A stretch of DNA of 64,000 nucleotides from an uncultured Microbacterium sp. GTDB lineage: Bacteria; Actinomycetota; Actinomycetes; Actinomycetales; Microbacteriaceae. Both the position numbers and the translations under genes were made by a program. The first letter of the stretch is position 1, and every line of letters starts with the position of its first letter. This document shows positions 15,185-61,351 of the stretch, piece by piece. Location: assembly GCA_913774665.1 (NCBI GenBank), contig CAJYHN010000010.1, positions 62,001 to 126,000 of the forward strand, given 5' to 3'. The notes beneath the pieces were generated by a model, which made no database searches, was not told where the DNA came from, and was given only the letters and a program-made list of their open reading frames with translations.

Positions 15185-15199
15185 GCCCGACGCGCGGGG

Positions 15200-45138: not shown

Positions 45139-45507
45139 TCAGCCCTTCTTCGCGCCGTAGCGGCTGCGAGCCTGCTTACGGTTCTTGACAGCCTGGGTGT
45201 CGAGTGCACCGCGGACGATCTTGTAACGGACACCGGGGAGGTCCTTGACGCGACCGCCGCGAACCAGCACGAGCGAGTGCTCCTGCAGGTTGTGGCCCTC
45301 GCCGGGGATGTAGGCGGTGACCTCGGTGCCGTTGCGCAGCTTCACGCGGGCGACCTTGCGCATGGCCGAGTTCGGCTTCTTGGGGGTCGTGGTGTACACG
45401 CGGGTGCACACGCCGGCCTGCTGGGGGTTCGACTTCAGCGCGGGAGCCTTGGTCTTCGAGACCTTCGGCGAGCGGCCCTTGCGAACCAACTGCTGAATGG
45501 TTGGCAC
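45139..45507 (-). CDS. rpsL: 30S ribosomal protein S12
   Basis: S12 (122 residues) shapes the decoding centre. [38 protein letters not shown] and [18 protein letters not shown] are visible. The streptomycin-resistance positions are wild type: Lys in TPKKPNS and Lys in RVKDLPG. The start is GTG ([11 protein letters not shown]) with AAGGAG upstream. Confidence 0.98.
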
Positions 45508-45787
45508 GTTCTCTCCTTGATTGGCTGGACGTTCCCTCGCGGTGGCGCCCAGGGTGCTGCACGGTGACAGCGTCGTGTCTCCCCCGTCATGTCGCGCATC
45601 TTGCGATTCGTGACGTGTCGGGCTCACGTGTGATCCACCGCGCGACAGAATGATCTAGCGCGATTCGTGGTGGATATGCCGTGGGGGCGACCTGTTCGCA
45701 GGCCGATCCCTGAGATGGTGCGAGCGTTGATCCGAACGACACACCCGGAGGCATGACGCACGGCGCGCGTGAACGCACACCCGGTCA
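45508..45787 (-). other. Long 5' leader of the str operon
   Basis: About 270 bases lie between the predicted transcription start near 45781 and the rpsL GTG, with no supported gene. I recognise no named RNA motif. Confidence 0.5.
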
Positions 45788-45816
45788 ATGATACGCGTTC
45801 CCCCGGACGTGGGCAA
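45788..45816 (-). promoter_or_regulatory. Promoter of the str operon
   Basis: On the minus strand TTGCCC (-35) and TATCAT (-10) are 17 bases apart. Geometry is the same as at the infA and S10 promoters. Confidence 0.65.
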
Positions 45817-45861
45817 ACGAGTACGGGTCCGGTCACTGGGAGTATCCCGGATGCCGCGCCC

Positions 45862-47004
45862 TCAGCCGGTCAGCAGCAGGACGGCCCCGACGATCGAGGC
45901 GACGAGCACCACCGCGACGACCGAGACGAGCACGATGACGCGTCCGGCACCCCGGTTCGCGCGCGGACGGACCGTCCCGACGTCCGTGGACGACGGCGCT
46001 CGGACGGCGACGACGCGCTCCACCCGCGCGGGCGCCTCGCGTCGCGGTTCGTACGACTCTCTAGCGAGGGCGGCGGGCACACGGGCATCGCGAACGGCTC
46101 CGTCGAGCACCGTTTCCGTCCGCCCCCCTCCCGCCTCGCGGCGACGACGGCGCGAGCCCGAGGCGGTCTCGTCGTCGACGTCCGCGGCGGGACGGGCGCG
46201 GGTGACCTCGTCGACCGGATCCGGACCGGAGCTCCGGCGACGGGTGAGCTCGTCGGGGACGACGCCCTCCAGCTCGTTCGTCGATGGGCTCCGCGTCGCG
46301 TCGTCGGGAACGTCGGCCTCGATCGGGGGTCGCGTGGAGGCGCGCCGCGGAGCCGTGGTGCCCACCTCGTCGTCGGCCGGGCCGGCCAGGCCGGGGAGGA
46401 CGGGTCCATTCTGAGGCGAGGCGCGGGTCGCGTCGTCGGGGGCCTCACGCCGCGAGACGACTGTCGCACCGTCGGGAAGGTCCACCCGCCCTCGCGGAGT
46501 CTCCTCCGCGGGCAGCTCGGCGCGCGACACGACCGTCTCGTCGTCCGGAAGCTCCGCCGGCACACCCGAAGGCCCACCCACCGGCGCCTCCCGGCGCGAC
46601 ACGACCGTCACGTCTTCCGGAAGCTCCACCGACGAACCCGAGGAGTCCTGGACCGGCGTACGGCGCGACACGACCGTCACATCGTCCGGAAGCTCCACCA
46701 GCGGACCCGAGGAGTCCTGCACCGGCGTCCGGCGCGACACGACCGTCTCATCGTCCGGAAGCTCCACCGACGAACCCGAGGGGTCCTGCACCGGCGTCCG
46801 TCGCGAGACGAACGTCTCGTCCTCGAGGAGGTCGGGCGCAGACAGATCCGTGTCGTGGTCCTCGCTGTCCCGACGGGAAAGGACCGTTTCGTCGGCGACC
46901 TCGTCGTCCTCCTCCACTGGCGGCGGGGTCGGCCAGGATCGGAGTCGCCCTGACCACAGCGTGACCTCGTCGGGGTCGTCCGGGCGGTCGTACGGGCCGC
47001 TCAC
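45862..47004 (-). CDS. Membrane protein with tandem acidic-Thr (phospho-acceptor-like) motifs
   Basis: This 380-residue protein is disordered over most of its length and ends in one membrane helix (about 355-378). It carries at least a dozen Thr residues in acidic contexts: DETVLSRR, DETFVSRR, DETVVSRR, DVTVVSRR (twice), DETVVSRA, GATVVSRR, then DDAT, DELT, DEVT and DETA variants. Six of these sit in tandem 23-residue units. Such sites resemble substrates of actinobacterial Ser/Thr kinases and ligands of FHA domains. A kinase and an FHA protein are in the same operon, the latter overlapping it by GTGA. The start is GTG. I know no named family; the role as a phospho-scaffold is inference. Confidence 0.75.
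   Translation of the reverse strand: MSGPYDRPDDPDEVTLWSGRLRSWPTPPPVEEDDEVADETVLSRRDSEDHDTDLSAPDLLEDETFVSRRTPVQDPSGSSVELPDDETVVSRRTPVQDSSGPLVELPDDVTVVSRRTPVQDSSGSSVELPEDVTVVSRREAPVGGPSGVPAELPDDETVVSRAELPAEETPRGRVDLPDGATVVSRREAPDDATRASPQNGPVLPGLAGPADDEVGTTAPRRASTRPPIEADVPDDATRSPSTNELEGVVPDELTRRRSSGPDPVDEVTRARPAADVDDETASGSRRRRREAGGGRTETVLDGAVRDARVPAALARESYEPRREAPARVERVVAVRAPSSTDVGTVRPRANRGAGRVIVLVSVVAVVLVASIVGAVLLLTG
46440..46830 (-). repeat. 69-bp in-frame tandem repeats
   Basis: About five to six units of 69 bp (23 codons) encode variants of D-x-TVVSRRTPVQDSSGxxVELP. The three central units are nearly identical in DNA (for example CGACACGACCGTC followed by CCGGAAGCTCCACC), while the flanking units are more diverged. 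The similarity suggests recent copy-number change. Boundaries are approximate. Confidence 0.75.
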
Positions 47005-48560
47005 GCGTCGCTCCGCGAGAGGCGCACCTCCGCGTCACCGAGGAAGAAGCGCTCACCGGCTTCGATCTCCTCGCCCGGAGGGGCCTCGACCTCGGTACCC
47101 ATGAGCGTGGCGAAGAGGACGCCGTTGGTGGAGTGCAGATCGGTGACGTACCAGGTGTCGCCGCGGAGCTCGAGGCGCGCGTGGGTCTTGGAGACCGTCC
47201 GCGTCTCGTCGGAGATCGGCACGAGCTGCGCATCCGGATAAGCGGGGTCGGGGCCGGGACGGCGCCCCAGGATGACCACCGCGGAGGTGAGATCGACGGG
47301 TGTGCCGCTCGGCGGTACGAGAGCCCACGGAATCCGCTTGCGGCGCGTGACCACGGTCCGGTCGAGGGCATCGAAATCATCCTCTGCCGACGCTGCCGGA
47401 ACCTCGGGCTGCGTATAGAGCGCCGACACCGACGTGCGCGCGGAGCGGGGGGAGCCGGCATCCGGAGCCTCCGCCACCGCGGAGACCGCCTCGGACAATT
47501 CGGGGAACTCGTCGAGGGCCGCGGCCACCGAGGGGCGAGGAGCGGGCACCGCGTCGGGTGCGGGGCGGGTGAGGGGCACGTCCGCGATGGGCGCGGATGC
47601 GGCACCCTGCGGGGAACGACGAGGCGGGTTGGCCCAGGGAGCGACGGAGTCGGACTCCTCCTCGACCTCGTCGGTCGGAGCGGGCGAGGGCGTCGGTGCG
47701 ACCACGGGCGGTGCCCAGGTGGGGACGGCAGCGGGCGGGTCGGCGACGTGGGAGCGATGAGCCTCGGGCGCCGCGGACGGAACCGGCGGGGTGGCAGGGG
47801 CGGCCGCGGGACGGTCGTCCTCGACAGGCGAGCCGTCGCGCAGGGCGTCGAGGACGTCGAAGACGGACGTCGCCGGCGCCGCGTCGCGGGCCTGCCAGGA
47901 CTGCTCGTCCTCCGCACGAGGAGGCTCCGCCGCGGGCGCGGGGACGTGAGCCGGCGGAGCCCAGTCGTTCGCAGACGGAACCGCGTCGGCGAGCGAGGGG
48001 GACGGAGCGGCGAAGGGAAGGGTGACCGGGGCGGTCACCGGCGCGGGCGGTGCAGAGGGAGTCGCGGCATCCGGGGCAGGAGCCGAGGGGTCCTGTTCCG
48101 GGGTCCACCCGCCGATGAGCGGGACGTACGGGCCGTCGAAGTCCTTACCGCGCCGAACGGGCGCGGAGTTCTCGTCGGGGCGGCTCGTGCGACGCTCCCC
48201 GCGCCACCGCGCGGATCCGAAGCCCAGGATGCTCGCCCAGATGAGGGGGAACAGCGCCCCCAGGACGGTGAAACCCGCTCCCACCCCGAACCCCGTGTTG
48301 ATGCGGTGCACCGCCACGATGAAGACCACGATGTAGGCGATCCCCCCGAAGATGGGCACGAGGTTCAACAGGATCAGCCACGGCGAGAACCCGCCGATCT
48401 TGAGCACGGTGGCCACGTTCAGGAACGGCACCCACGCCTTCCAGGCGGGTTCTCCGACCTTGCGGAAAAGGGCCGCGAGGGCGAGCGCGAGCCAGACGTA
48501 CAGGACGACGACGAGGGCGAAAGACGTCGCCCCGAGCACCACCATGGTCGAATCGTTCAT
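47001..48560 (-). CDS. Membrane protein with C-terminal FHA domain
   Basis: This 519-residue protein has three parts. Residues 1-120 hold about four membrane helices with FRKVGEPAWKAWVPFLNV, like DUF5684-type membrane proteins. A disordered Pro/Ala-rich linker runs about 125-390 and ends with LDRTVVTRRKR, a copy of the Thr motif of the next gene. The FHA domain (about 415-515) has ILGRRPG, SKTHARLEL and HSTNGV, so the phospho-Thr-binding Arg, Ser, His and Asn positions are present. It overlaps both neighbours by four bases. It may read phosphorylation of its neighbour or of itself; this is inference. Confidence 0.86.
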   Translation of the reverse strand: MNDSTMVVLGATSFALVVVLYVWLALALAALFRKVGEPAWKAWVPFLNVATVLKIGGFSPWLILLNLVPIFGGIAYIVVFIVAVHRINTGFGVGAGFTVLGALFPLIWASILGFGSARWRGERRTSRPDENSAPVRRGKDFDGPYVPLIGGWTPEQDPSAPAPDAATPSAPPAPVTAPVTLPFAAPSPSLADAVPSANDWAPPAHVPAPAAEPPRAEDEQSWQARDAAPATSVFDVLDALRDGSPVEDDRPAAAPATPPVPSAAPEAHRSHVADPPAAVPTWAPPVVAPTPSPAPTDEVEEESDSVAPWANPPRRSPQGAASAPIADVPLTRPAPDAVPAPRPSVAAALDEFPELSEAVSAVAEAPDAGSPRSARTSVSALYTQPEVPAASAEDDFDALDRTVVTRRKRIPWALVPPSGTPVDLTSAVVILGRRPGPDPAYPDAQLVPISDETRTVSKTHARLELRGDTWYVTDLHSTNGVLFATLMGTEVEAPPGEEIEAGERFFLGDAEVRLSRSDA

Positions 48561-51067
48561 GTCGTGTCGCGTTCCACTAGGGCGGTGGAGCGCTTCCCCC
48601 TCTCGTCGCGGTGCGGCGACCCCCGCCGCGAAGGGCGTGGAGCGAGGAACCGCAGGAACGATCTCAACGATACGGCCGCGCGCAGGCGCCGCCAGAAGCC
48701 CCGCTCACGGGTGAGAGTACGACGTTCCTCGTCGACGATGCGCCAGAACGCCTCGACCTCGTCGGAATCCACCTGCTCCGACGAGAACACGGCCCGGTCG
48801 GCACCCTCGGCGAGGAGCGTTCCGGAGGGCGTGGCGAACGCCTCCGCCACCTCGCGACGCGTCGGTGCGCGCGGGACGGTGCGACCCGCATCGACGCCCG
48901 CGTCCACGTACTCGTCCCAGCCTCCCGCGATGGCCGTCCGCGGATCCGCGTCGCGGCGGCGCCCACGACGGCGCACCGCCTTGGCGATGACGATCGCGAG
49001 GAATGGGCCGAAGAGCACGAGCAGGACGAGCAGCGAGATCCCCGCGATCCGCAGACTCGCCCACAGCCAGGCGAGGTCCACCCCGTCGTCGGTGCGCGGG
49101 TCGTCGTTCTGAGCGTTGTCCTCCTGGACCGGCTCGGGGGGAACGACCTCCTGAACGGTGTCGGGACGCACCTCCGTGACGTTCTCGGGATCCTGCTGCT
49201 GAGTGACCTCGAGGCTCGGCGACTGCTCCCACTGCGGTGTGACGTCGATGGGAGCCCACCGACCGTCGGATCCCTGCACCTCGGTCCACGCGGTGAGATC
49301 GCGCGCTCGACACTCCCCCGCCTCGCAGGTGGACAGCTTCGCATCCGTGGACACCAATCGCGTCCCCACGACCACCCGAGCCGGGAAGCCGAGCTCGTGG
49401 GCGATGAGCGCCGCGGCGACGGCGAACTGCTCGTCATCGCCGACGGCGGCGACGAAGTTGCCCGAGGCGGCGGCTCGCGGGTCGTCCTCTCGCTCGAGGA
49501 GACGCTCGAACATGCGGTCGATACGGGCCAGGGAGTGTCCGGACGCGCTCGGCTGGAGCTGGTATCCCTGCAGACCGGCCGCCCACTTCGGCGTCGGCCC
49601 ACCCTCCGGGGCGAGGCTGTGGCTGAGGTAGCCCCGCTGACGGAGCATCTGGACCAGGCTCTGCAGAGCCGCGCCGTCGGTGCCGCCGGCGTGCTCCTGG
49701 ACCCAGCGACGGAGGTTGTCGCCCCCGGCGACGCCGTCTCCCGCGCCCGGAGGCGTCATCGTGGCGAGATCGTCGGTGACGGGCTCGACGGCGTCGAGTC
49801 GGTAGCGATCCCCCTCGACGAGACCGCCGTCAGCGGTCTGTACGCCCGCCTCGGCGTCGGAGCTGTAGTAGAACCGGTCGGCGAGAAGGCCGCGACGGTC
49901 TCCCTCGAACGTGGCCGAGGCGAGACGGCCGGCGGTCGGCATCCAGATGCCTCCGAGACCGACGATCTCGACCTCCGCCTCGATGGGCCTGCCCTCCCCC
50001 GCATCGCGCGTCGACGGAAGGCGCACGAAGCCGGCACCCTCGTTGCCGGAAGCCCGGAAGATCTCGCCGTCGTAGGCGTCGAGGGTCGCGATGCGGATGC
50101 GTTCGGGCTCCGCCCCCGTCCCGTCGACACGGAACAGCACCTGGTCGGAACGCGCGTCGGAGAACATCGAGCGGTACTCCGACAGGGGACTCACGGCCTC
50201 GGCGATCAGCCGCTCCGGCCCGGCAGCCGATCGGAGGACCTGGCGATCCGCGTCGCGCGCGGCCGCGGGGACCACGGCGACCGTGACGGCCACCGCGACC
50301 ACGAGCATTCCCGCGCCCAGGCCCAGCCGTCGGCGATCCGCGCGCGAGCGTCCAGGTCCCACGGGAACGGCCGAGACGTCGCTTGCTCGACGCAGGGCGC
50401 GTCCGCGCTCGTCCTGCGCCCTCCAGGCCAGCCACAGCACCGAGACCAGCAGGGCGCTGAGGCCCACGAACGTCTCCACCGGCGCGGGCAGGTCGAACGA
50501 GCCGATCGACAGGGGCGCGCTGGTCGAGGTGCGCCCGAAGAAGAGGCCGAACCCGGTCATGCCCAGACCGCCCACCACCGCGAACGGCGCCCATCGATCG
50601 CCGCGGGTGGCGAGAGCGAAGGTGAGGGCGGTCCCCACGAGGAAGATCACCAGCGCGGGGATCAAGAGGTTGCGGTAGGCCCCCACCGGCAGGTCGACGG
50701 TGACGAGGTCCTTCCAGGCGACGATGACGCCCGCGAACGACTCGCCCAGGCCCCGCAGGACGTCGAGAGGAGAGGTGAGTCGCGAAGGGACGGCCAGCGG
50801 AACGGAGAGCACCGTGAACGCCCCCAGCAGACCGGCGGCGAGGATCCACCCGCTCCACCGGCGCCAGGACACGACCCCCACCACGGCTCCGGCGACGATG
50901 ACCGACACCGCCACCAGGAGCAGGAAGGAGCCCGACGCGTAGACCGGCCACGCGGCGACGGTGGCCAGCGCGACCGACAGCACGGTGTACACGGCGGCGG
51001 CCGCGTAACGCGACAGGTTCGTCTCGCGCCGACGCGTCTTCGCGCGCGCGCCCCGCCCCCCGCTCAC
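48557..51067 (-). CDS. Transglutaminase-like membrane protein, catalytic residues replaced
   Basis: This 836-residue protein has about seven N-terminal membrane helices (residues 20-265) and an extracytoplasmic region with a transglutaminase-like core (about 525-620). A late helix (about 670-695) and a cytoplasmic tail follow, the TgpA/DUF3488 layout. The core reads GDDEQFAVAAALIAHELGFP where active members have GDCEQFA, and DLTAWTEVQ where they have HAWVEV. Cys is replaced by Asp and His by Thr, while the Asp of APIDVTP remains. It is therefore probably a pseudoenzyme. It is co-encoded with MoxR and DUF58, its usual partners. The start is GTG. Confidence 0.82.
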   Translation of the reverse strand: MSGGRGARAKTRRRETNLSRYAAAAVYTVLSVALATVAAWPVYASGSFLLLVAVSVIVAGAVVGVVSWRRWSGWILAAGLLGAFTVLSVPLAVPSRLTSPLDVLRGLGESFAGVIVAWKDLVTVDLPVGAYRNLLIPALVIFLVGTALTFALATRGDRWAPFAVVGGLGMTGFGLFFGRTSTSAPLSIGSFDLPAPVETFVGLSALLVSVLWLAWRAQDERGRALRRASDVSAVPVGPGRSRADRRRLGLGAGMLVVAVAVTVAVVPAAARDADRQVLRSAAGPERLIAEAVSPLSEYRSMFSDARSDQVLFRVDGTGAEPERIRIATLDAYDGEIFRASGNEGAGFVRLPSTRDAGEGRPIEAEVEIVGLGGIWMPTAGRLASATFEGDRRGLLADRFYYSSDAEAGVQTADGGLVEGDRYRLDAVEPVTDDLATMTPPGAGDGVAGGDNLRRWVQEHAGGTDGAALQSLVQMLRQRGYLSHSLAPEGGPTPKWAAGLQGYQLQPSASGHSLARIDRMFERLLEREDDPRAAASGNFVAAVGDDEQFAVAAALIAHELGFPARVVVGTRLVSTDAKLSTCEAGECRARDLTAWTEVQGSDGRWAPIDVTPQWEQSPSLEVTQQQDPENVTEVRPDTVQEVVPPEPVQEDNAQNDDPRTDDGVDLAWLWASLRIAGISLLVLLVLFGPFLAIVIAKAVRRRGRRRDADPRTAIAGGWDEYVDAGVDAGRTVPRAPTRREVAEAFATPSGTLLAEGADRAVFSSEQVDSDEVEAFWRIVDEERRTLTRERGFWRRLRAAVSLRSFLRFLAPRPSRRGSPHRDERGKRSTALVERDTT

Positions 51068-52440
51068 GAGGTCGCCCCCCGCACCAGCAGACCCGAGAGG
51101 TCGTCGAGCGTGCCGATGGTCAGCACCGTCAGGCCCGCGATGTTCTGCATCCGCGGATGCGCGCGCTCGTCGCAGATCACGGCGGCGACGGCCGTGTCGG
51201 CCGAGAACGCGAGGGCCGCTTGGCGCAGACGGGTGAGCGGCACCGTGGCGCCCACGACGACGAAGGCGATCGAGAGGCGTTCGTTCGCCTCGGATGCCAA
51301 TCGGCAGACGTCCTCGACCGGCATGGTGTTCTCGTGCCGCTCGATGGCGCTGAAGCCGTCGAGCATCGTGCGCGGGGCCACGACGGGGATGTGGCGGATG
51401 GCGCGCAGGCGCCCCTTCACGACACGCGGGATCTCGGACCCGGTGACGATGTCGATGTCGCGTGCGTCGCGCACGGCCCGCAGGCCCAGGGAGGCCGCGG
51501 CCGAGACGGCGAGCTCGTACTCGTCGGCATCGGTGTACTCCTGCGTCGCCGCGGCGAGCACGACCGCCATCCTCGAGCGGCGCGACTCTTCGTACTGTCG
51601 CACCATGAGCCGGCCCGTCTTCGCGGTGGACTTCCAGTGCACCTGACGGCGGGAGTCCCCGGGAACGTACTCGCGGATGGCGTGGAACGACATGTCCGCA
51701 TCGACCAGCCGGCGCGTGGCGTTGCCCTCGAGGTCGCGCACGAGGCCCGCGCTCGTGGACGGCAGCCCCACCGTGCGCGGGTGCACGAAGAGGTCGTGCA
51801 CGTCGTCGAAGGCGTGCTCCCGGCGGAGCAGGCCCACGGGGTCGCTGCGCACCGTCGTGACGGGCCCGACACGGACGACCCCGCGCGGGAGCGGGGGGAT
51901 CTCGAGCGGTTCTGTGGAGCTCTGCCCCGGGCGGAGGAAAGGCACCCCGAACTCCACGAGGCCACGGCCGACGGGGATGTCGAGGCGACCGGGCAGGGCG
52001 GGACGCGCGCTCTCGTTGCGCACCACGATCTGCCCCGTCACACCGTTACCGGCGGTCACGCGCTCGTGCTCGAGCGCCAGATCGACCTCGTAGGCACGGG
52101 CGCCGAATAAGAAGGGCACGCTCATGACCAGGAGGATCAGCGCCGCGCTCCCCGCGACCATCCACTCGACCCACCCGAACAGCATGCCCAGCAACAGGCC
52201 CACGGTCGCGGCGAGCACGACCACGGCCCCGGCGGGACGCACGGTCCGACCCGCCCATCGCACCGCGGCGGCGACGGCCTCGGTCGTGATCCGCCACCCC
52301 TCCGCGATCTGGACCACCGCGCGCACGATGCGGCGCTGCCGACGGACCGAGGTCGACGTGATCGAGGTGCGCGAGCCGGTCACCATCGTGCCCGCGGAGG
52401 TCCGCGTGAGACGCGACTCGGTCAGATTCAGATCGGGCAC
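51064..52440 (-). CDS. DUF58 membrane-associated protein
   Basis: This 458-residue protein has two membrane helices near residues 70-110, a beta-rich part, and the DUF58 signature AIREYVPGDSRRQVHWKSTA followed by LMVRQYEE. A vWA-like C-terminal half follows. DUF58 proteins pair with MoxR ATPases in clusters thought to act in envelope-protein maturation. The start is GTG. Its stop overlaps the transglutaminase-like gene (GTGA). Confidence 0.9.
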   Translation of the reverse strand: MPDLNLTESRLTRTSAGTMVTGSRTSITSTSVRRQRRIVRAVVQIAEGWRITTEAVAAAVRWAGRTVRPAGAVVVLAATVGLLLGMLFGWVEWMVAGSAALILLVMSVPFLFGARAYEVDLALEHERVTAGNGVTGQIVVRNESARPALPGRLDIPVGRGLVEFGVPFLRPGQSSTEPLEIPPLPRGVVRVGPVTTVRSDPVGLLRREHAFDDVHDLFVHPRTVGLPSTSAGLVRDLEGNATRRLVDADMSFHAIREYVPGDSRRQVHWKSTAKTGRLMVRQYEESRRSRMAVVLAAATQEYTDADEYELAVSAAASLGLRAVRDARDIDIVTGSEIPRVVKGRLRAIRHIPVVAPRTMLDGFSAIERHENTMPVEDVCRLASEANERLSIAFVVVGATVPLTRLRQAALAFSADTAVAAVICDERAHPRMQNIAGLTVLTIGTLDDLSGLLVRGATS

Positions 52441-52486
52441 GACTCACCCCCCGAGCGGGGTGCGGACGCCACGGGACGCGCCACCG

Positions 52487-53452
52487 TCAGGCGCTCTCGC
52501 GCTGCGAGGGCGGCTGGGTGTCGAGGAGCACCTGGCCGATGACGGCCTCTTGCGTGACCCCGTCGAACTCGGCCTCGGGGTGCAGGATGAGCCGGTGCGC
52601 CAGCACCGCGACGGCCAAGGCCTTGACGTCGTCGGGGGTGGCGTACGTCCGCCCCTGCGACGCGGCACGGGCGCGCGTGGCGCGCGTGAGGGCGAGGGCC
52701 CCTCGGATGCTCACGCCGAGGCGGACCTCGTCGGCCGTGCGGGTGGCATCCACGAGACGCGCGATGTAGTCGAGCACGAGCGCGTCGACGTAGACGGATG
52801 CCGCGAGGTCGGCCATTCCGACCAGGGCCTGCGGCGTGATGATCGCGCGCAGCTCGGCCGTGGCGACGGGCGCACCGTCGAGGATGCGGACGGTCGCCGC
52901 GTGGTCGGGGTACCCGAGCGAGGTGCGCAGCAGGAAGCGGTCGAGCTGGGCCTCAGGGAGACGATAGGTTCCCGCCTGCTCGACGGGGTTCTGCGTCGCG
53001 AGGACGAGGAACGGAACGCCCACCTCTCGAGAGACGCCGTCGATGGTGACCTTGCCCTCTTCCATGACCTCGAGGAGCGCCGACTGGGTCTTGGGGCTCG
53101 CGCGGTTGATCTCGTCGGCCAAGACGATGTTCGCGAAGATCGGGCCGGTGTGGAACTCGAAGGACCCCGTCTTCTGGTCGTAGACCGTGATGCCGGTGAT
53201 GTCACCGGGGAGGAGGTCGGGGGTGAACTGGATGCGCGTGTTCGTGCCCTGGACCGACGAGGCGACCGCGCGCGCAAGAGAGGTCTTACCGGTCCCGGGG
53301 ACGTCCTCGAGGAGGACGTGGCCGTCGCTGAGCATGGCGGTGAGCACCAGCTCGACCACGTGCCGCTTGCCGAGGACGGCGCGCTCGACGTTGTCGGCGA
53401 TCTGCGAGAAGGTCTGGGAGAACCAGGTGGCCTGCTCCTGGGTGATCGTCAT
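52487..53452 (-). CDS. MoxR-family AAA+ ATPase
   Basis: This 321-residue ATPase has Walker A in LLEDVPGTGKTSLARAVAS, Walker B in ADEINRASPKTQSALLEVME, sensor 1 in LATQNPVEQAGTYRLPEAQLD (LATQNP core) and a lid domain with VSIRGALALTRA. MoxR proteins act as chaperone-like ATPases with vWA/DUF58 partners. The start is the ATG with AAGGAT upstream. It is 47 bases from both neighbours, the widest gap in the operon. Confidence 0.94.
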   Translation of the reverse strand: MTITQEQATWFSQTFSQIADNVERAVLGKRHVVELVLTAMLSDGHVLLEDVPGTGKTSLARAVASSVQGTNTRIQFTPDLLPGDITGITVYDQKTGSFEFHTGPIFANIVLADEINRASPKTQSALLEVMEEGKVTIDGVSREVGVPFLVLATQNPVEQAGTYRLPEAQLDRFLLRTSLGYPDHAATVRILDGAPVATAELRAIITPQALVGMADLAASVYVDALVLDYIARLVDATRTADEVRLGVSIRGALALTRATRARAASQGRTYATPDDVKALAVAVLAHRLILHPEAEFDGVTQEAVIGQVLLDTQPPSQRESA

Positions 53453-53501
53453 GTCGAAATCCTTCGGTGGGCGAGAGCGGGAATGGGGATGCCGGGAGGG
53501 C

Positions 53502-56500
53502 TCAGGACGAGGGGGGCGGGGCGGGCGTGCCGGGCTTGCACCCGCCGCCGAAGTCGGTCGACGCGGAGTCGAGGTTCCAGCCCTGAGCGGACCAGTCGAC
53601 GGTGACGCGGATGTTCTCGACACGAGTGGTGCCGACCGGCACGCTCGTCGCCGGCGCACCCTCGGCGACGCTCAGCCGCTTGCCGTCCTTGTCGTAGTAG
53701 CGGGCGTTGTCGTAAGAGAAGGTCACCTTGGCCTTGTCGTTGCTCGACGAGCCGCTCGCGCTGAGCGTTTTGCCGCCCTCGCAGCTCTCGACCTTCCACG
53801 AGGCTTGCACCTGATAGGGGGCGCTTCCGTTGGCGGGCGTCACGGCGCCGTACTGCGACTGGGTACCCCACACCTGGTGCTGGAAGTAGACCTGGATCTC
53901 CGGATCGCGATCGAAGACAGTGGTACCCGGGCCCCAGTTGACGAATTTCTTGTCGTTGAAGCGCGGCGGCGGATCGCCGTCGTTGATGCGGTCGATGCGC
54001 CAGCGCGCTTCATTGCCGTCGATCGTCGCCTTCGAGCCGACCCGGAAGGTGTACCCCTTCGGCGCCGCCTTGCTCTGCTGGGCATCGACCTGCTGGTCCA
54101 TGCTCACCGAGCCGTACGACCGCCCGTTGAACCACGACTCCGCGCACATCGTGAACGTGTAGGTCTCGCCGTCGCCGAGCGCGGTGAACCTCTGGGTGTC
54201 ACCGCCGCTGCGGGGGATGCAGGGCAGCCCCTTCTGCACGATGTTGAACCGCACTTCGGAATCCGTACCGTTCTGCTGCGCGGTCGCGCGGGCGTCGACG
54301 GTCGAGGTGCCGTTCCCGTTCGAGGTCGAGGTCAGCGTGAGGGTCGGATTGGTCGGCGCCCCGACGCCGTGCGCGATCGCGCTCAGCTGGTTGCCCGCCG
54401 AAGCACCGCCGAGCCCCGGAGGCACGGTGAAGCGGGAGATCGGGGTGACGGTGACCTGCGTCGACGAGTTGGAACCCACGCGGAAGCGAGCGACCTGCAC
54501 GACGTCCTGATTGCGGCCGACGCTCACCTGGATCTTGTCGCCCGCGGCGCTCGCGATCTCGAGGGTCCCCGTCTCGGCGCTGTCGACGCCCTTGATGACG
54601 AGGTCGGCGAGGTTCCCCTCTCCCCCGGTCTGCGTCGGCGTGAAGTCCATTCCCTTGGGCGCGTTCGGCGGGCGGTACGCCCACCCGGTCGTGCGCACCG
54701 CCGTCTTGGACTCGCCGACGCTGTTGACCGCGGTCACGACGTACTCGCGCTGTTCGCCGTTGGGAGCGGCGATCGGCGGGCAGGTGCCGTCCGCGCCGCA
54801 CTGGCCGACGACCGCGCCGTTGGACCGCACGGTGAAACCCGAGATCGCGGGGTAGGCGCGTCGCGCCTCGCCCGGGTCCACGCGGAGGGTGAGCGAGCCG
54901 TCGGCGTAGGCGGTCTGTCGCACACTCCCCGGCGGGCGCGGGAATCCGAGCAGGTCGAGCACCACGCGGGCGTCGCGCGTGGACGCCGTCGTGCGCCCCT
55001 GTGCGTCTCGGAGCGTGACACTCGCGCTGCAGGTGGCACCGGGGGCGTCATCGCTCCACGAGGCGACGATACCCGAGGCCGAGGCGACGCCGAAGCTCAC
55101 GCCGGCGCAGGCGGCGGTCGGACGCACGTCCACGACCTCGAGGGGCGTGCGCGGGAGTGGATTGACCTCGCCGCTGGCTCCGATGACGCCGATGGTGCAG
55201 CTCGAGCCCGAGGCCTGCGAGCACTGCTGCGAGGTGGTGCCTCCCTGGGGAAGGGTGGAGGGAGCAGCACCCACGCGCAGCACCAGGCGGGCCGGGGCGA
55301 CGGCGTTGTGGCTCGTCACGGAGATGATCGCGGCGTTCTCGGTGCCGGGAACGGAGCGGTCATTGCCGGTGACGGTGACGATCGATCCGTCGAGGGACAC
55401 GCCGAACGCGGATCCGCCGTAGTCCAGGGCGTAGCGGATGCCGGCCCAGTCCTCGCGACCCAGCTGCCAGCTGGTCATGTTGCGCAGATCGAAGGTGGCC
55501 GTCTCGCCGGGCCCGACCGTCAGGGCTCCGGGCTTGAGCACCGGCTGGGGGTCGCGCGCGACGACGCCGATGGGCACCGAGACCACCGTCCAGTCCTCTG
55601 TGCCCGCGATGCGCACCGGCACCTGGCAGGCATCGGTGTAGGGGGAGCCGGCGCCCGCGTCGTAGCGGACGACCGTCCCCGAGACGGAGCACCGCCCTTC
55701 GGCGCGCACCCCGGTCGCCGAGACATCGGTGCCGACCTCGAGCGTCGCACGGCGCGGGAGCGCGATGAGCCCCGCCATGTCGAACTCGACCGAGGCGAGC
55801 TCGTCCACGCGCTGAGCGGCGCCCGGGCGCAGGGAGAGACTGAGGTCGTCGTCACCGGGGACGCGCAGGAAGGCGTAGGTGGTCACATCGGAGTCGCCGA
55901 CCCGGCCGGTGATGGCGAACGGGATCACGCGTCGCGTCGCGGGCAGGGTGCCCGAGATCTGGCGACCGTTCAACGTGACGTCGGCGGGCTGCCCCCAGAG
56001 CGAGACATCGAGGTCGCCGACCTCTCCCCCGGACCACGTGGCCTTGCCCGCGAGCACATCGACGCCGGAGGTGAAGTCGTCGCGGTTCTCGACGGTCAGC
56101 ACGGTGTCGGTGACGACGGGATAGTCCGGCACGTTCTCGCGGACGACCTTGACCACGATGAGACCGCGTCCGGTGTTGCCCGAGTCCGAGGCGACGTCGT
56201 AGAGGAACGACATCGTCCCTGGCTGTTCGCCGGCCTTGATGACGACGCCGGTGTCGGACACCGCGTCGATGTACCCCTTGAGGCGGGCGTACTCGGGGTT
56301 GTCGCTCTCGTCGACGAGCTTCTCGGGCAGGTCGGGCCGGACGCCGGTGAGAGTGAGACGCCCCTGCGTGGGGTCGATGTCGTTCGCGAGGGGGCTCACG
56401 CGGATCGTACGGTCTGCGCCGGCCTGCACCTGCACGTAGTCGGTGAAGGTGATGGGACTGGGGTTGGCCTGCGCGTCGAGCACGCCGATGCGGACCGTCC

Positions 56501-59453
56501 CCTCTCCCGTGGCGCCCGAGGAGTCCGAGACGCGGTAGCGGAAGGACACCTGACCACGGTCACCGGGGACCGAGGAGTACAGGATGCTGGACCCGTCCGG
56601 CGAGATCGAGGCGGTGCCGCGGTTGGGCTGCGCGACGATGCGGTCGAGCGTGACGGCGTCGCCGTCGGGGTCGACGCCGAAACCCTTGAAGTCGATCGAG
56701 GTGGTGCCGCCGCTGAGGACGCGCCCCTCGAGGGTGTCGGGCAGAGGGGCGCGGTTCGCTTCTCCGCCCAGGACCGTGACGTGGACGGTCGCCTCATCCC
56801 AGAGAGCCGGAGTACCCGTCGTGTAGACGCGATAGGTCACCTCGTACGAACCCGGCGTGGTCGGGGCGAGGTAGCGCAGGACTCCCCCGGAGGTGAAGGC
56901 GAGGGCGTCACTCGCCGGCTGGGCCTGCACGCTCGAGGGGTCGAGCGTCGGGCGTCCGCCGGCCGGTGAGATGTCGTTGTCGAGGACGGGGATGTCGATC
57001 TGCGCGCCCACGCGCACCGTGACGTTGTCATCGACCGCGATCGGAGCGATCTCGGGAGCCGGCGGGAGCAGGTAGACCGTCGCCTCGCCCGTCACCCTCG
57101 AGCCCTCGTCGTCCGTTCCGTCGCTGACGGTGTAGGCGACGGTTCCGAGAAGCCCCGCGGAGCCGTCAGCGGTGCTGCCCGAGACGCGCAGGTCGTTCTG
57201 ACCCACGGTGTCGACGGTGAGCGAGGCGCCCTCTTGCGCCGTCCCGACCACGTCGCTCAGCAGGAGCACGCGACCGGTGGGGTTCGACACCGCGCTGAAG
57301 ACGTCGAGCGTCGCGTCCTCCTGCGGCCGGACGAACGCGACGACCGGGGAGGTCGCCAGCTGCGCCGGCGCGTCGGCGGGGAGCAGGGTGATGCGCGCGG
57401 TCCCCGTCGCGTCGCGACCACCGCCGTTGACGGTGAAGTCGACACGGTAGACGCCGGGCTGATTCGCCGAGAAGTCGAACGTGGTGCTGCCGCCGACCAC
57501 CGTCGCGGTGGCCGTGGCGTCGTCGAGGACCCGGACCGAGGTGAGGCTGACGTTACCGGCGGTCCCGGTCACGTGGGGGCCCACATCGACCGCCACCGAG
57601 GACCCGACGGTGTCGATCGTCGCGAAGGACTGGACGGCGAGCGTGGGATCGGGAGCCACGCGGATGACGAGGGGTTTGGTCGTCGCTGCCCCCTCGGTGT
57701 CGGCCACGGTGACGTCGAGCTGGATGTTCTGCTCGCCGCCCGAGCCGTCGTCGGCATGCTGGTAGACCACGTCTCCCGCGGGGGTCGCGGCGACAGTGCC
57801 CACGCCGCCGGGGTTGTCCACCGAGAGCAGCAGCAGCGGGTCGCCGTCGGGGTCCACCCAGCCGGGGAGGACGGGGACCGTGATGGTGCCGCCGCGAGCG
57901 ACCTCGGGGGTCGGCCAGGGCTGCAGGCACTTGTCGACGCCGCACCAGACGGGCGCCGCGTTCGACGAGGGCGGCGAGACCGAGAGGGTCACCGAGGTGG
58001 GGGCGGAGTTCAATCCGTCGGCCGCGGTGCCGTCGGTGACCGCGTACGAGAAGGTGGCGCTGCCGGTCGCCCCCGGCGCGACGCGCACGGCGAGACGCTG
58101 ACCGGCGTCGGTCACGGTGAGCGTTCCGAAGCCCGGGTCGAGTCCCGTGACGCTCTCGGCGATGATGCTGAGGACGTCCTCGTTGGGGTCGTGGTCGTTC
58201 AAGAGCACGGGAAGCGTCGTGAGACGACCGGGCCGCACGCCGAACGCATCGGGTTCGGCGATCGGCGGCTTCGGGTCGAGGACGACGCTCAGCTTCTCAT
58301 CGCTCTGCACGGCGGTCTGCTCGGTGCGATCGTCGAGCGACCAGTTCTGGCTGGACGCGACGAGGGCCCCGTCGGGCACGGTCCAGACCCACCCCGTGCG
58401 CGTCTCGTTCAGGATCACGGCGTGGTCGGTCGCGACGAAGACCGGCCGCCGCTGGTCGGGCATGGTCGCTCCGCCGTAGTCGAGACCGGTCTCGCCCTCA
58501 TCGGAGCGCCACAGCGTGCCGCGTGCGTCCCCCGGCAGGAGCCAGGCGGCGTACGCGACGCCCTGGTGCGACAAGGGGCGGGCGGGCTGGCCGAGGACGT
58601 TGCCTCCGCCGCCGACCTCGCGCCGGGGCTCCGAACCGTCTGCCGGGATGCTCCACAGCGACTGGTCGTCGGCGACGTACACCGCCCGTGCGTCGGCGTC
58701 GGCATCGGCGACCACGAGCTGGTCGGCCGCGTCGATGGTGACCGGGTCCGCGCCGCGCACCCACACCCGGCCTGCGTCCGCGTCGACGAGGACCCAGGTG
58801 TCCCCGGCCGCCGAGAGGACGGGAGCAGCGATCTCCGCCTCGAGCGCATCACGGCCGCGCACTTCGTCTGCGTCGATGTCGTACCGGATGACGGAGCCGT
58901 CGGCGGACGAGTAGGCGAAGAGCATGCCGCGGGCGTCGAGGGCGATGGCATCCGCGGTATAGGACGGCGCGTTCTCGTCCTGCGAGGTGTCGAAGGGGTC
59001 GAGCTCGGTGGGCTTCTGCCCCGCCTGGCTCAGGCGGCTCGCGAAGAGCGTGCCGGTGTCGGTGCGGTACACCGCGTAATCGCCCGCCGTGACCACCGAG
59101 GTCGTACCCGGCGGGGTGTCGGGGGCCGCCTCGAGCTGGTCGTCGGAGAGGTCGACGGGCTGGGCCTCGTTGATCCGGGTGAGCTTGCTGAAGCTGTCGG
59201 TGAAGAGGTAGGCACCGTCACCGCTCTGCACCACCTGGCTGGGGTTGCCCGCGGTGCGCACGGTGTCGAGTTCGCCGACGGTGGTGTTCACGCGCGCGTA
59301 GCGCTGGCCGTCACCGGTCTGCAAGGCCCACACCGACGTGTCGACCTCGGGGGTCTGCTGGGCGTCGAGACCGGGCCACACGATGCTCGCCGTGATGACG
59401 AGGGCGGCGGCTGCGAGCGTCGAGGCCAACCCCGCGATCGTCCTGCGCTTCAT
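53502..59453 (-). CDS. Giant surface protein: propeller-like, Ig/cadherin-like and Fn3-like domains
   Basis: This 1983-residue protein has an N-terminal membrane anchor (about residues 5-25). Residues about 40-450 look like a beta-propeller of short repeated strands (for example GDGQRYARVNTTVGELDTV, YAVYRTDTGTLFASRL). From about 460 to 1430 there are many Ig/cadherin-like modules with recurring NDxDP, V-x-VLxND and FxYxVSD motifs. Fn3-like domains follow to about 1750, then a C-terminal beta-rich domain with a Cys pair. It overlaps the kinase gene by ATGA. It is probably a wall-spanning adhesin or sensor; the ligand is unknown. Domain limits are estimates. Confidence 0.85.
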   Translation of the reverse strand: MKRRTIAGLASTLAAAALVITASIVWPGLDAQQTPEVDTSVWALQTGDGQRYARVNTTVGELDTVRTAGNPSQVVQSGDGAYLFTDSFSKLTRINEAQPVDLSDDQLEAAPDTPPGTTSVVTAGDYAVYRTDTGTLFASRLSQAGQKPTELDPFDTSQDENAPSYTADAIALDARGMLFAYSSADGSVIRYDIDADEVRGRDALEAEIAAPVLSAAGDTWVLVDADAGRVWVRGADPVTIDAADQLVVADADADARAVYVADDQSLWSIPADGSEPRREVGGGGNVLGQPARPLSHQGVAYAAWLLPGDARGTLWRSDEGETGLDYGGATMPDQRRPVFVATDHAVILNETRTGWVWTVPDGALVASSQNWSLDDRTEQTAVQSDEKLSVVLDPKPPIAEPDAFGVRPGRLTTLPVLLNDHDPNEDVLSIIAESVTGLDPGFGTLTVTDAGQRLAVRVAPGATGSATFSYAVTDGTAADGLNSAPTSVTLSVSPPSSNAAPVWCGVDKCLQPWPTPEVARGGTITVPVLPGWVDPDGDPLLLLSVDNPGGVGTVAATPAGDVVYQHADDGSGGEQNIQLDVTVADTEGAATTKPLVIRVAPDPTLAVQSFATIDTVGSSVAVDVGPHVTGTAGNVSLTSVRVLDDATATATVVGGSTTFDFSANQPGVYRVDFTVNGGGRDATGTARITLLPADAPAQLATSPVVAFVRPQEDATLDVFSAVSNPTGRVLLLSDVVGTAQEGASLTVDTVGQNDLRVSGSTADGSAGLLGTVAYTVSDGTDDEGSRVTGEATVYLLPPAPEIAPIAVDDNVTVRVGAQIDIPVLDNDISPAGGRPTLDPSSVQAQPASDALAFTSGGVLRYLAPTTPGSYEVTYRVYTTGTPALWDEATVHVTVLGGEANRAPLPDTLEGRVLSGGTTSIDFKGFGVDPDGDAVTLDRIVAQPNRGTASISPDGSSILYSSVPGDRGQVSFRYRVSDSSGATGEGTVRIGVLDAQANPSPITFTDYVQVQAGADRTIRVSPLANDIDPTQGRLTLTGVRPDLPEKLVDESDNPEYARLKGYIDAVSDTGVVIKAGEQPGTMSFLYDVASDSGNTGRGLIVVKVVRENVPDYPVVTDTVLTVENRDDFTSGVDVLAGKATWSGGEVGDLDVSLWGQPADVTLNGRQISGTLPATRRVIPFAITGRVGDSDVTTYAFLRVPGDDDLSLSLRPGAAQRVDELASVEFDMAGLIALPRRATLEVGTDVSATGVRAEGRCSVSGTVVRYDAGAGSPYTDACQVPVRIAGTEDWTVVSVPIGVVARDPQPVLKPGALTVGPGETATFDLRNMTSWQLGREDWAGIRYALDYGGSAFGVSLDGSIVTVTGNDRSVPGTENAAIISVTSHNAVAPARLVLRVGAAPSTLPQGGTTSQQCSQASGSSCTIGVIGASGEVNPLPRTPLEVVDVRPTAACAGVSFGVASASGIVASWSDDAPGATCSASVTLRDAQGRTTASTRDARVVLDLLGFPRPPGSVRQTAYADGSLTLRVDPGEARRAYPAISGFTVRSNGAVVGQCGADGTCPPIAAPNGEQREYVVTAVNSVGESKTAVRTTGWAYRPPNAPKGMDFTPTQTGGEGNLADLVIKGVDSAETGTLEIASAAGDKIQVSVGRNQDVVQVARFRVGSNSSTQVTVTPISRFTVPPGLGGASAGNQLSAIAHGVGAPTNPTLTLTSTSNGNGTSTVDARATAQQNGTDSEVRFNIVQKGLPCIPRSGGDTQRFTALGDGETYTFTMCAESWFNGRSYGSVSMDQQVDAQQSKAAPKGYTFRVGSKATIDGNEARWRIDRINDGDPPPRFNDKKFVNWGPGTTVFDRDPEIQVYFQHQVWGTQSQYGAVTPANGSAPYQVQASWKVESCEGGKTLSASGSSSNDKAKVTFSYDNARYYDKDGKRLSVAEGAPATSVPVGTTRVENIRVTVDWSAQGWNLDSASTDFGGGCKPGTPAPPPSS

Positions 59454-60586
59454 CGGAGGACTCCCGTGGCGAACAAGGCGGCGACGACGACGGCCCCCGC
59501 GGTCACCAGCGTCGCCGAGGCGAGGACCCACGGAAGCGCCTTCGAGCCGGTCGAGGCGGGCGAGGCGATGTCGGTGTCTTCGTCGCGCACGTAGCCCGCC
59601 ATGCCGGAACTGCCGCGGAGCTTGCGCCCACCCTCGCGCTCGATGCGCGACCGGGCCGGGCCCCGCAACGTCCCGTCGGCGAAATCGACCGCTCGGGCGG
59701 CGGGCGCCCACTCCGCGGCGGGGACCTCGAGCGGTGTCGAGGGCAGGCCGGCCTCGACCTGGACGGCCTGGATCGCCTCGCCGAACTCGCGTGCGCTGGC
59801 GTACCGGTCGGCGGGGTTGCGGGACATCGACTTCGCGAGCACCGCCTGCAGCGAGGCGGGGACGTCGTTGCGGGTGATGTCGGTGTAGGTCGCGCGGGCG
59901 ATGCGGCGTCGCAACTGCTCGCGGGAGTTCTGCCCCTTCTCGCGTCGCTCGAACGGGCTCTGCCCCGCCAGCAGCGAGTAGATCGTGGCGCCGAGGCTCC
60001 ACACCTCGCTGGACACGGTTCCGGCCGTCTGCTCGGCGACCACCTCGGGCGCGCTCCATGGCACCGACATCGCCAGCATCTCGTCCGCCCCCTGTCGTAC
60101 GAGGGACGAGGAGATGCCGAAGTCGGCGAGGACGGGTGCTCCGAACGTCGTGACGAGGATGTTGCTCGGCTTCACGTCGCGGTGGATGAGTCCCGCGTGG
60201 TGCGCCGATTCGAGGGCCCCCGACATGCGGACGCCGATCGAGAGGACCTCGGGCACGGGGATGCGCTCGACGCGGTAGCGCTGAGCGAGCGAACCCGGAC
60301 AGAACTCCATGACGATGTAGGGCCGGCCGTCGGCCGAGATCCCCGCCTGGTACACGGTGACGATCGAGGGGTGGGCCGAGAGATGGGCGAGGACGTCGGC
60401 TTCGGCATTGAACATGCGCAGCAGATCGGTGTCGCGCACATCGCTCGGAAGCACCTTGACCGCGACGTCGCGGCGCGGCATGTCCTGCCCGTACAGGAAG
60501 ACGTCCGCGAAGCCTCCGGAGCCCAGCGGTCGGATGTACGCGAGCCCGGGCAAGATGGGCGGCGAAGACGGCAGGCGCTGCGGCAT
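59450..60586 (-). CDS. Membrane Ser/Thr protein kinase (PknB-like catalytic domain)
   Basis: This 378-residue kinase has an intact catalytic domain (about 15-270): GSGGFADVFL loop, VAVKVL Lys, HRDVKPSNILV, LADFGIS and SAPEVV. The activation segment (SLVRQGADEMLAMSVPW) is atypical, without the usual TxGTP. A linker with DEDTDI leads to one membrane helix (about 350-375) and almost no outer part, so no PASTA sensor. The surface protein encoded next could supply sensing. The ATG at 60586 follows GGGGGAGGGGG. It is the first gene of the operon. No phosphatase gene is present nearby. Confidence 0.92.
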   Translation of the reverse strand: MPQRLPSSPPILPGLAYIRPLGSGGFADVFLYGQDMPRRDVAVKVLPSDVRDTDLLRMFNAEADVLAHLSAHPSIVTVYQAGISADGRPYIVMEFCPGSLAQRYRVERIPVPEVLSIGVRMSGALESAHHAGLIHRDVKPSNILVTTFGAPVLADFGISSSLVRQGADEMLAMSVPWSAPEVVAEQTAGTVSSEVWSLGATIYSLLAGQSPFERREKGQNSREQLRRRIARATYTDITRNDVPASLQAVLAKSMSRNPADRYASAREFGEAIQAVQVEAGLPSTPLEVPAAEWAPAARAVDFADGTLRGPARSRIEREGGRKLRGSSGMAGYVRDEDTDIASPASTGSKALPWVLASATLVTAGAVVVAALFATGVLR

Positions 60587-60688: not shown

Positions 60689-61351
60689 TCAGGATGCCGG
60701 AGGCTCCACGTCGCGCGGATCGAACGGCGCATCGAGCGAGCGGGTGAGGTCGTCCAGGAGCGCGGCGATCTGCGGTTCGACGAATTCCGCCACCGCCGCC
60801 TGGATCCGGAGGCGGTGATGGAGAAGGACCGTGCACACTTCGCGGCCGATCATGTTGGCGTAGTCGTCGGCGAGGCCCACCTCCTGTCGCAGCGCCGCCT
60901 TCGCGGCATCCGACAGCGGGGGAAGAGCGGGGATGGCCGCGTCCTCTTCGGCCGCGAGGCCCGAGAGGGTGAAGAGGAAGGGCGACCCGGGCTCGGGGTC
61001 GGGGTCGAGCGGCATCCCGTCGAACTCGGGTTCGAGCCCTTCGGCCGGACGGTACGAGCGTCGTCGGTTGCGCTCGGCCTGCTGGTCGAGCTCGGCCTGC
61101 AGCATCGGGAGATTGCGAGACGTGTACTCGGCGACCGCATGATCGACGATCGCCTTCACCCGCGTCGACAGTCCGTGTTGCACCCCGTGCGGGACATCGG
61201 ACCCGAGACCCGCAGCCGACAGAACCGGCGAGCCGAAGCACCGGCGGCACGGAGCGACACGACCGCGGTGGTTCGCGGGCTCCCAGCGGGGCAGCCAACG
61301 GAGCCAGGCGTCCACCGCCTGACCGACCTGGCTCTCGAGCGACCGCTCCAC
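60689..61351 (-). CDS. Conserved-looking protein, unknown function
   Basis: This 220-residue soluble protein has an N-terminal HRGRVAPCRRCFGSP segment (a C-x2-C that may bind metal), a central Pro/Asp/Glu-rich linker and a helical C-terminus. I recognise no domain. The start is a GTG seven bases after a TAGCGT box. It lies upstream of the kinase operon in the same direction, 102 bases away. Confidence 0.62.
   Translation of the reverse strand: MERSLESQVGQAVDAWLRWLPRWEPANHRGRVAPCRRCFGSPVLSAAGLGSDVPHGVQHGLSTRVKAIVDHAVAEYTSRNLPMLQAELDQQAERNRRRSYRPAEGLEPEFDGMPLDPDPEPGSPFLFTLSGLAAEEDAAIPALPPLSDAAKAALRQEVGLADDYANMIGREVCTVLLHHRLRIQAAVAEFVEPQIAALLDDLTRSLDAPFDPRDVEPPAS

Follow-up and report, generated by a model that had tools for sequence, protein, structure and literature searches.

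A PFNA-type operon of Microbacterium with a putative FHA-linked threonine switch and a threonine array in the phosphatase position

Results

The 64-kb window analysed here (the whole stretch of 64,000 nucleotides taken from contig CAJYHN010000010.1 of an uncultured Microbacterium sp.) contains a seven-gene operon that encodes a membrane Ser/Thr kinase, a giant surface protein, a MoxR ATPase, a DUF58 protein, a TgpA-like protein of transglutaminase fold, a membrane protein with an FHA domain and a protein with repeated acidic-Thr motifs, the product of open reading frame 7 (ORF7). The operon is related to the PFNA operon of bifidobacteria, its FHA protein has an invariant Thr shortly before the FHA domain, ORF7 carries an array of sites resembling that one, and the array gene occupies the place where the nearest sister lineages have a phosphatase gene. 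With a probability of roughly 60%, we propose that a PFNA-type phospho-Thr/FHA switch controls an envelope machine, and that the array is a multivalent copy of the switch peptide.

The operon belongs to a type found in many actinobacterial families

The PFNA gene cluster (pkb2-fn3-aaa-atp-duf58-tgm, to which some species add prpC, a hypothetical gene and fha) is described as unique to bifidobacteria in an excerpt of PMC8430577, one of three papers that limit it to Bifidobacterium, and the mycobacterial moxR operon has been noted as resembling it (excerpt of PMC12067865). The window has these five core genes in unchanged order on one strand, plus an FHA gene, and its kinase, giant propeller region, MoxR, DUF58 and TgpA-like protein all match those of one family in our set, f41. 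We infer from the gene order and from a WSx[PD]S motif in three of its eight giants (WSKPS or WSADS near residue 1580, in 3/4 of the longer ones and 0/4 of the shorter ones) that f41 is Bifidobacteriaceae. Both published layouts occur in it, namely five genes (L194, L196-L198) and kinase-giant-MoxR-DUF58-TgpA-PP2C-x-FHA (L199, L203). Moreover, the propeller region of the window giant aligns with the f41 giants L197 and L201 at 20-23% identity, which argues for homology and not gene order alone. As judged from these comparisons, the window operon is homologous to PFNA and hence neither a new kind of operon nor a new assembly, a kinship absent from an earlier reading of this DNA (the sequence-only reading). 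In L199, the hypothetical gene between PP2C and FHA (14428-15237) encodes a protein with similar ends (NPRCYPGLKRWLA, NPNTYPALLDWLA) and an Ala/Gln/Pro-rich middle with no Thr array.

To follow the operon among relatives we used the best 80 of 104 relatives from a DUF58 search of genome contigs as Microbacterium-type loci, many of them cut by contig ends. The nearest relative with a species name, L036 (M. testaceum StLB037), is 98% identical over the DUF58 protein. In these 80 loci, tblastn detected the TgpA-like protein in 79, MoxR in 79, FHA in 77, the giant in 76 and the kinase in 71, so the genes stay together across Microbacterium. A DUF58 match with an E-value no higher than 1e-25 was seen in 181 of the 297 genomes, and 52 of the 92 genera, covered within the order, although DUF58 alone is no proof of the operon. 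In 60 further stretches fetched around DUF58 matches, a selected and not a random sample, giant, MoxR, DUF58 and TgpA-like protein occur together in 53. These 53 core loci carry 13 family labels, among them that of the window and one (f29) that belongs to another order; on the strand of DUF58, 43 of them have the kinase, 34 have FHA and 26 have PP2C. Among the seven non-core stretches, four to five (L140-L143, L205) are MoxR-DUF58-TgpA loci without a giant, and in L135 and L195 MoxR is the single unmatched core gene. Two genomes of a sister genus, G094 (L124, L127, L130) and G117 (L125, L128, L133), hold three paralogous PFNA-type operons each, which differ in kinase tails and FHA types. A Microbacterium-type operon with 72% DUF58 identity was also met in a record titled Planococcus (L073), probably a contaminant or mislabelled.

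An invariant threonine precedes the FHA domain

In all 68 Microbacterium FHA proteins that could be parsed (the window and 67 loci; the disrupted FHA gene of L080 lies outside this set), a Thr is kept in the context [DEG]xT[VIM][VIAM] followed by basic residues. Its distance to the first FHA strand is nearly constant, 28 residues in 62 proteins, 29 in five and 27 in one, and the linker preceding it varies in length. An alignment of 53 FHA rows from several families keeps Thr in 51 rows, with an acidic residue at -2 in 50 and V/I/L at +2 in 47; because these rows (the window and 52 of 79 stretches) were pre-filtered for an acidic-Thr site, the counts lean upwards, the unfiltered count being the 68/68 given above. 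The pocket residues for phospho-Thr (G-R, S-x-x-H, N-G) are invariant in the 53 rows. Beyond the 80 loci, a loose pattern located an acidic-Thr site within 60 residues in 27 of 33 parsed operon FHA proteins; the other 27 loci have no FHA gene by the rule used, though some carry one elsewhere in the stretch. This most constant of the substrate-like sites, which lies in the FHA protein itself, was overlooked by the sequence-only reading.

The self-peptides of GarA, OdhI and DgcB have a hydrophobic residue at -3, Glu at -2, Ser at +1 and hydrophobic residues at +2 and +3, according to an excerpt of PMC6733907. The operon site fits this pattern at -3 (L/F/I/V in 37/53), -2 and +2 and not at +1, and its +3 residue, mostly Ala, Thr, Val or Ser, shows little fit to the published hydrophobic one. 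The FHA region gave no sequence match to solved structures; matches by fold include CEP170 (human, top), FhaA, MDC1, GarA, OdhI and the complex of DgcB and its phosphopeptide. Another FHA protein (L009, G000:C10:340938-341090) resembles it by eye in having N-terminal hydrophobic helices and a C-terminal FHA domain. Its gene lies ~11 kb away from L008, an RDD-like FHA gene that precedes an apparent FtsK/EccC-type gene, and the protein appears to be a paralogue of the operon FHA protein in a possible type VII-like locus.

ORF7 repeats sites that resemble the FHA self-site

ORF7, which has no Pfam match at E 0.01, carries its array at the N terminus and a helix at the C terminus, besides a stretch rich in Arg. 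By position, the gene was identified in 57 labelled rows besides that of the window (L082 has a short candidate, L040 could not be resolved and the L054 locus is cut). In 55 orthologues, which are related and thus not 55 independent cases, the motif [DE]xTx[VILM]x1-2R occurs 161 times against 5.7 (standard deviation 2.3) in composition-preserving shuffles; the same motif with Ser in place of Thr occurs 7 times against 5.1. The repeated acidic-Thr motifs pointed out by the sequence-only reading are therefore real and conserved among orthologues, with Thr and not Ser kept. A chance origin of the array was set aside on the same counts, those of Thr motifs lying far above the shuffles and those of Ser not.

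Resemblance to the FHA site was scored with a matrix built solely from FHA self-sites (41 distinct), with a cut of 4 bits. At or above this cut were 107 of the 872 Thr in the 55 ORF7 proteins, compared to 3.7 in shuffles (at most 12 in any of 500), and 2 of 745 Ser; on 36 ORF7 representatives the matrix gave 62 against 2.4. In proteins of the same operons used as controls such sites were rare: 1/1129 in the kinase, 3/2167 in MoxR, 5/2474 in DUF58, 4/3251 in TgpA, 47/13281 in the giant and 9/1922 in the rest of the FHA protein. At the DNA level, an exact pattern for the acidic-Thr motif had no match in the window, and a looser one found four sites against none in the reversed control, two in ORF7 and two in frames not taken for genes.

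The array gene stands in the place of a phosphatase gene

A PP2C gene follows FHA in all ten sister-lineage loci used, and none was found in the 80 Microbacterium loci, a result resting on the 68 that hold the whole FHA gene, a few of these being cut soon after. The absence of a phosphatase from the window operon, noted by the sequence-only reading, was borne out. The Thr-array protein was found in the Microbacterium lineage alone, no search dedicated to the array having been made elsewhere. On a DUF58 tree of 76 rows (PP2C in 10, array in 58, neither in 8) the states require two changes versus a shuffled mean of 17.2; the tree comes from a quick search with 16 rows left out, its ten PP2C rows were picked for that state, and L207 was set as 'neither' from its near-identity to L075. 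We read the two changes as one swap from PP2C to array and one later loss, the direction (phosphatase first) resting on PP2C adjoining FHA in other families, and the missing operon phosphatase would thus probably be a derived loss.

Relocation of the operon PP2C to another site was considered and set aside, since none of the three PP2C genes found elsewhere in the window's genome exceeds 45% identity to any of the nine operon PP2Cs compared. The operon PP2C of L174 is 53-59% identical to six of these nine, 44-46% to two and 33% to one, so that the identity ranges overlap and loss is likelier than relocation, not proven. One of the genome PP2Cs (C13:286265) has 51% and 48% identity to the PP2Cs upstream of the kinase in the paralogous operons L127 and L133.

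The transglutaminase-like protein lacks the catalytic Cys and His

The Cys-His-Asp triad is conserved in Pseudomonas aeruginosa TgpA, whose purified domain was assayed and is reported, in an excerpt of PMC3507681, as a Ca2+-independent transglutaminase; the window protein, with D545, T592 and D608 at the triad positions, lacks the Cys and the His. Among 78 Microbacterium TgpA-like proteins (window included), 77 have Asp and one has Glu in place of the Cys, the His position is Ser, Thr, Ala or Val and never His, and the Asp of the triad is kept in all 78. In the 60 further loci Cys is found in 0 of the 59 with data and His is kept in 15; the degenerate loci include five without a giant, so the catalytic loss extends more widely than PFNA. 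Three other transglutaminase-fold proteins found in the window's genome keep Cys and His. Comparison of the TgpA-like protein with solved structures yielded two sequence matches of no use (E 0.27 and 0.34), and among the papers listed by a literature search on inactive transglutaminases beside MoxR/DUF58, no title or abstract start spoke of an inactive TgpA. From its residues, enzymatic activity of the annotated transglutaminase is unlikely, a point absent from the sequence-only reading. The DUF58 protein of the window lacks Asp at a possible metal site (VVLAAATQE versus VVLDTS-like in some distant relatives) that varies across families; the site looks degenerate in the window's clade.

A nearly tailless kinase and a giant with a predicted propeller

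By hydropathy scan, the window kinase has a single transmembrane (TM) helix at residues 354-372 of 378 and ~6 residues outside, in agreement with the sequence-only reading, which had described a kinase with no extracellular sensor of its own. The outside tail measures 0-9 residues in kinases of the window type and 94-135 in others (124-135 in six f41 kinases measured). Catalytic residues are intact in 72/72 kinases, the window having the catalytic Lys, HRD and DFG, and 54 of the 72 have no Thr between DFG and the PE motif; kinase input may therefore come from a partner. The N-terminal region of the giant is a predicted beta-propeller, with propellers such as 1l0q and BamB as fold matches. The hydropathy scan also indicates that the array, the kinase domain and the FHA domain can all be cytoplasmic.

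Layout of the locus

Open reading frame coordinates and a Pfam scan place all seven genes on the minus strand, from 60586 to 45862, as the sequence-only reading had it (Table 1), and the domains found agree with it: PF00069 in the kinase, MoxR (AAA_3), DUF58, TgpA_N with Transglut_core, and DUF5684 with FHA, next to an Ig/cadherin-like giant of 1983 aa. Its account of the junctions held in part. Four of the six overlap by 4 bases, while the other two, rather than bringing the overlapping or nearly overlapping junctions to the five claimed, are gaps of 49 and 46 bases (from the reading frame coordinates, with the MoxR start at the ATG at 53452). The coordinates show tight gene spacing across the operon; promoter and terminator scans of the operon gave results near background level, and Rfam and tRNA scans of the 64-kb window no match.

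Directly after the operon come rpsL, rpsG and fusA (window 45139-45861), the operon ending ~350 bases from rpsL, and rpsL is present in the fetched stretch at 48/80 Microbacterium loci. About 100 bases upstream of the kinase, window 60689-61351 encodes a 220-aa protein with no Pfam match that recurs in 70/80 Microbacterium loci and in 3/60 loci elsewhere, all three of the same genus.

Table 1. Positions in the window of the operon genes and of features within their products.
Feature	Position	Strand	Basis or remark
Membrane Ser/Thr kinase, 378 aa	59450..60586	-	Open reading frame, Pfam, hydropathy; one C-terminal TM helix
Giant surface protein, 1983 aa: N-terminal hydrophobic anchor/signal, beta-propeller, immunoglobulin (Ig)/cadherin-like repeats	53502..59453	-	
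Giant residues 26-440: predicted beta-propeller and beginning of Ig stalk	58134..59378	-	Model, mean predicted local distance difference test (pLDDT) 90.6
MoxR AAA+ ATPase, 321 aa	52487..53452	-	
DUF58 membrane protein, 458 aa, two predicted TM helices	51064..52440	-	
TgpA-like polytopic protein, degenerate transglutaminase domain, 836 aa	48557..51067	-	
Asp545 at catalytic Cys position of TgpA-like protein	49433..49435	-	
Thr592 at catalytic His position of TgpA-like protein	49292..49294	-	
DUF5684 and FHA protein, 519 aa	47001..48560	-	Three TM helices by hydropathy in DUF5684 part
Thr402 of conserved acidic-Thr site (ALDRTVVTRRKR) preceding FHA domain	47355..47357	-	
ORF7, tail-anchored Thr-array protein, 380 aa	45862..47004	-	
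ORF7 array, seven FHA-self-site-like motifs: Thr 40, 64, 87, 110, 133, 157, 181	46444..46899	-	
ORF7 C-terminal TM helix, residues 356-374	45883..45939	-	Hydropathy

Discussion

We propose that the operon combines a writer (the membrane kinase), a reader (the FHA protein) and an envelope machine (propeller-Ig giant, MoxR, DUF58 and TgpA-like protein). The kinase would phosphorylate the invariant Thr just upstream of the FHA domain, which would capture that phospho-Thr in cis or from a neighbour in the manner of GarA, OdhI and DgcB. Such capture may set the state of a MoxR/DUF58/TgpA complex that would handle the surface giant, with the TgpA-like protein acting as a putative binding or structural pseudoenzyme. 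In the Microbacterium lineage, the operon phosphatase gene would have been lost and its slot taken by the tail-anchored array protein, and a phosphorylated array could compete for FHA proteins and gather them at the membrane. MoxR may be a second kinase target, given that B. longum Pkb2 is active and phosphorylates its MoxR according to an excerpt of the review PMC8430577.

Several observations weigh against the proposed switch and its array copy. Just 2/872 ORF7 Thr reach 13.35 bits, a strict cut derived from the self-sites, so the array sites are similar and not identical to the FHA self-site, and the residue gap before RR in the FHA site is only loosely matched by that in the array within genomes, a comparison that is phylogenetically confounded. 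At 4 bits no site is scored in ten of the 55 ORF7 proteins, and ORF7 is absent from 7/80 loci (L069, L075, L077, L079, L080, L084, L086), indicating that ORF7 is not essential to the system. Six of the 33 parsed FHA proteins beyond the 80 loci lack the site by the loose pattern, though L208 has one on inspection. AlphaFold2 gives a confident FHA domain with the linker site at low confidence and undocked; as the model holds no phosphate, this is neutral rather than negative. A narrow literature search on Microbacterium phosphoproteomes found no phosphorylation data. As to the phosphatase, 27/53 other core loci also lack PP2C on the operon strand, so its loss is not peculiar to Microbacterium. 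Moreover, in all six genomes compared (G335, G217, G395, G414, G301, G314) a PP2C lies within ~5 kb of a second DUF58 match, as found by comparing positions. These six Microbacterium genomes carry the window-type operon by DUF58 identity, and the second match is more distant; it probably marks, with its PP2C, a second PFNA-type operon, lacking in the window's genome, where there is no second DUF58 match. Such an operon could supply a phosphatase in trans in those six.

This last point bears on a bolder form of the proposal, which we consider possible and would not bet on: that an eraser was exchanged for a sponge, the phosphatase being replaced once at the base of the lineage by a protein that mimics the FHA phosphosite as many as nine times, so that multivalent competition or membrane clustering, not a dedicated phosphatase, would set the strength and duration of the signal, with the machine's transglutaminase a pseudoenzyme. 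The second, PP2C-bearing operons of the six genomes weaken it.

Somewhat more doubtful is the model of the sequence-only reading, with ORF7 as the main substrate on which FHA proteins would cluster, remodelling of the cluster by MoxR/DUF58 and a secondary role for the FHA self-site. The same reading suggested that the giant may sense contact with wall or matrix. Several Thr-specific motifs and a fitting topology speak for this model, but ORF7 was found in the Microbacterium lineage alone and is missing from seven loci with an FHA gene, and the FHA self-site is kept in 6/6 parsable of these seven. We think it unlikely that ORF7 is a disordered tail-anchored spacer, unphosphorylated, with repeats arisen by duplication and drift. 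Repeat number and spacers do vary even among the window and its nearest relatives, L036 and L017, as a spacer would allow; however, the motif position retains Thr and avoids Ser (161 versus 7 motifs), and the array resembles specifically the FHA self-site, of which the control proteins have few.

Host communication, with the giant sensing immune signals as proposed for bifidobacteria, seems very improbable. Many operon-bearing families are largely not gut residents. The PFNA homology and the TNF-alpha (tumour necrosis factor alpha) binding reported for a bifidobacterial FN3 fragment (excerpt of PMC8430577) would favour it, but the operon occurs in Microbacterium and many other families, and none of the five WS sites of the window giant fits the cytokine-receptor motif WSx[PED]S (WS-PS/WS-ES/WS-DS). 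Least probable of all is that the transglutaminase-like protein is the output enzyme, crosslinking or cleaving surface proteins: a Pfam Transglut_core match and the activity reported for the P. aeruginosa TgpA domain (PMC3507681, in excerpt) are countered by the replaced Cys and His positions described above and by the intact Cys and His of the three other transglutaminase-fold proteins of the same genome.

The findings turn PFNA from a bifidobacterial immune-sensing curiosity into a system common to many actinobacterial families, which changes its possible general function. The Thr preceding the FHA domain offers one testable phosphosite and ORF7 a bacterial example of a natural multivalent Thr array, whose location in a phosphatase position provides a natural experiment on how phospho-signals end.

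Among known systems, the threonine phosphorylation pathway of the type VI secretion system (T6SS) includes the PppA phosphatase. In that pathway the PpkA kinase and Fha control an envelope machine by phospho-Thr (excerpt of PMC3953482), and the window operon likewise has a kinase and an FHA protein beside an envelope machine. The machine differs, consisting of MoxR, DUF58, TgpA-like protein and giant; type VI components are absent from the nine proteins scanned, the genome as a whole not having been searched for T6SS genes. The reader of the MDC1 sites is the FHA domain of NBS1. These repeated acidic-Thr sites (the SDT repeats) recruit NBS1 when phosphorylated, as stated in an excerpt of PMC11642328. 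ORF7 also repeats acidic-Thr sites, but MDC1 is a eukaryotic nuclear protein and the likeness claims no sequence relation. With GarA, OdhI and DgcB, the window FHA protein shares an acidic-Thr-hydrophobic site shortly before the FHA domain and a canonical phospho-Thr pocket. GarA and OdhI are soluble, whereas the window FHA domain belongs to a membrane protein and similar sites recur in ORF7; DgcB, in turn, is cyclase-linked (PMC6733907, in excerpt), unlike the window FHA protein. Compared to PFNA, finally, the window operon has a kinase lacking the extracellular C-terminal region, no phosphatase, an extra Thr-array protein and a membrane-bound FHA protein with DUF5684. The points that we regard as new are thus the FHA self-site, the array mimicking it, the position of this array in the PP2C slot, the degenerate transglutaminase, the near-tailless kinase and the predicted propeller of the giant.

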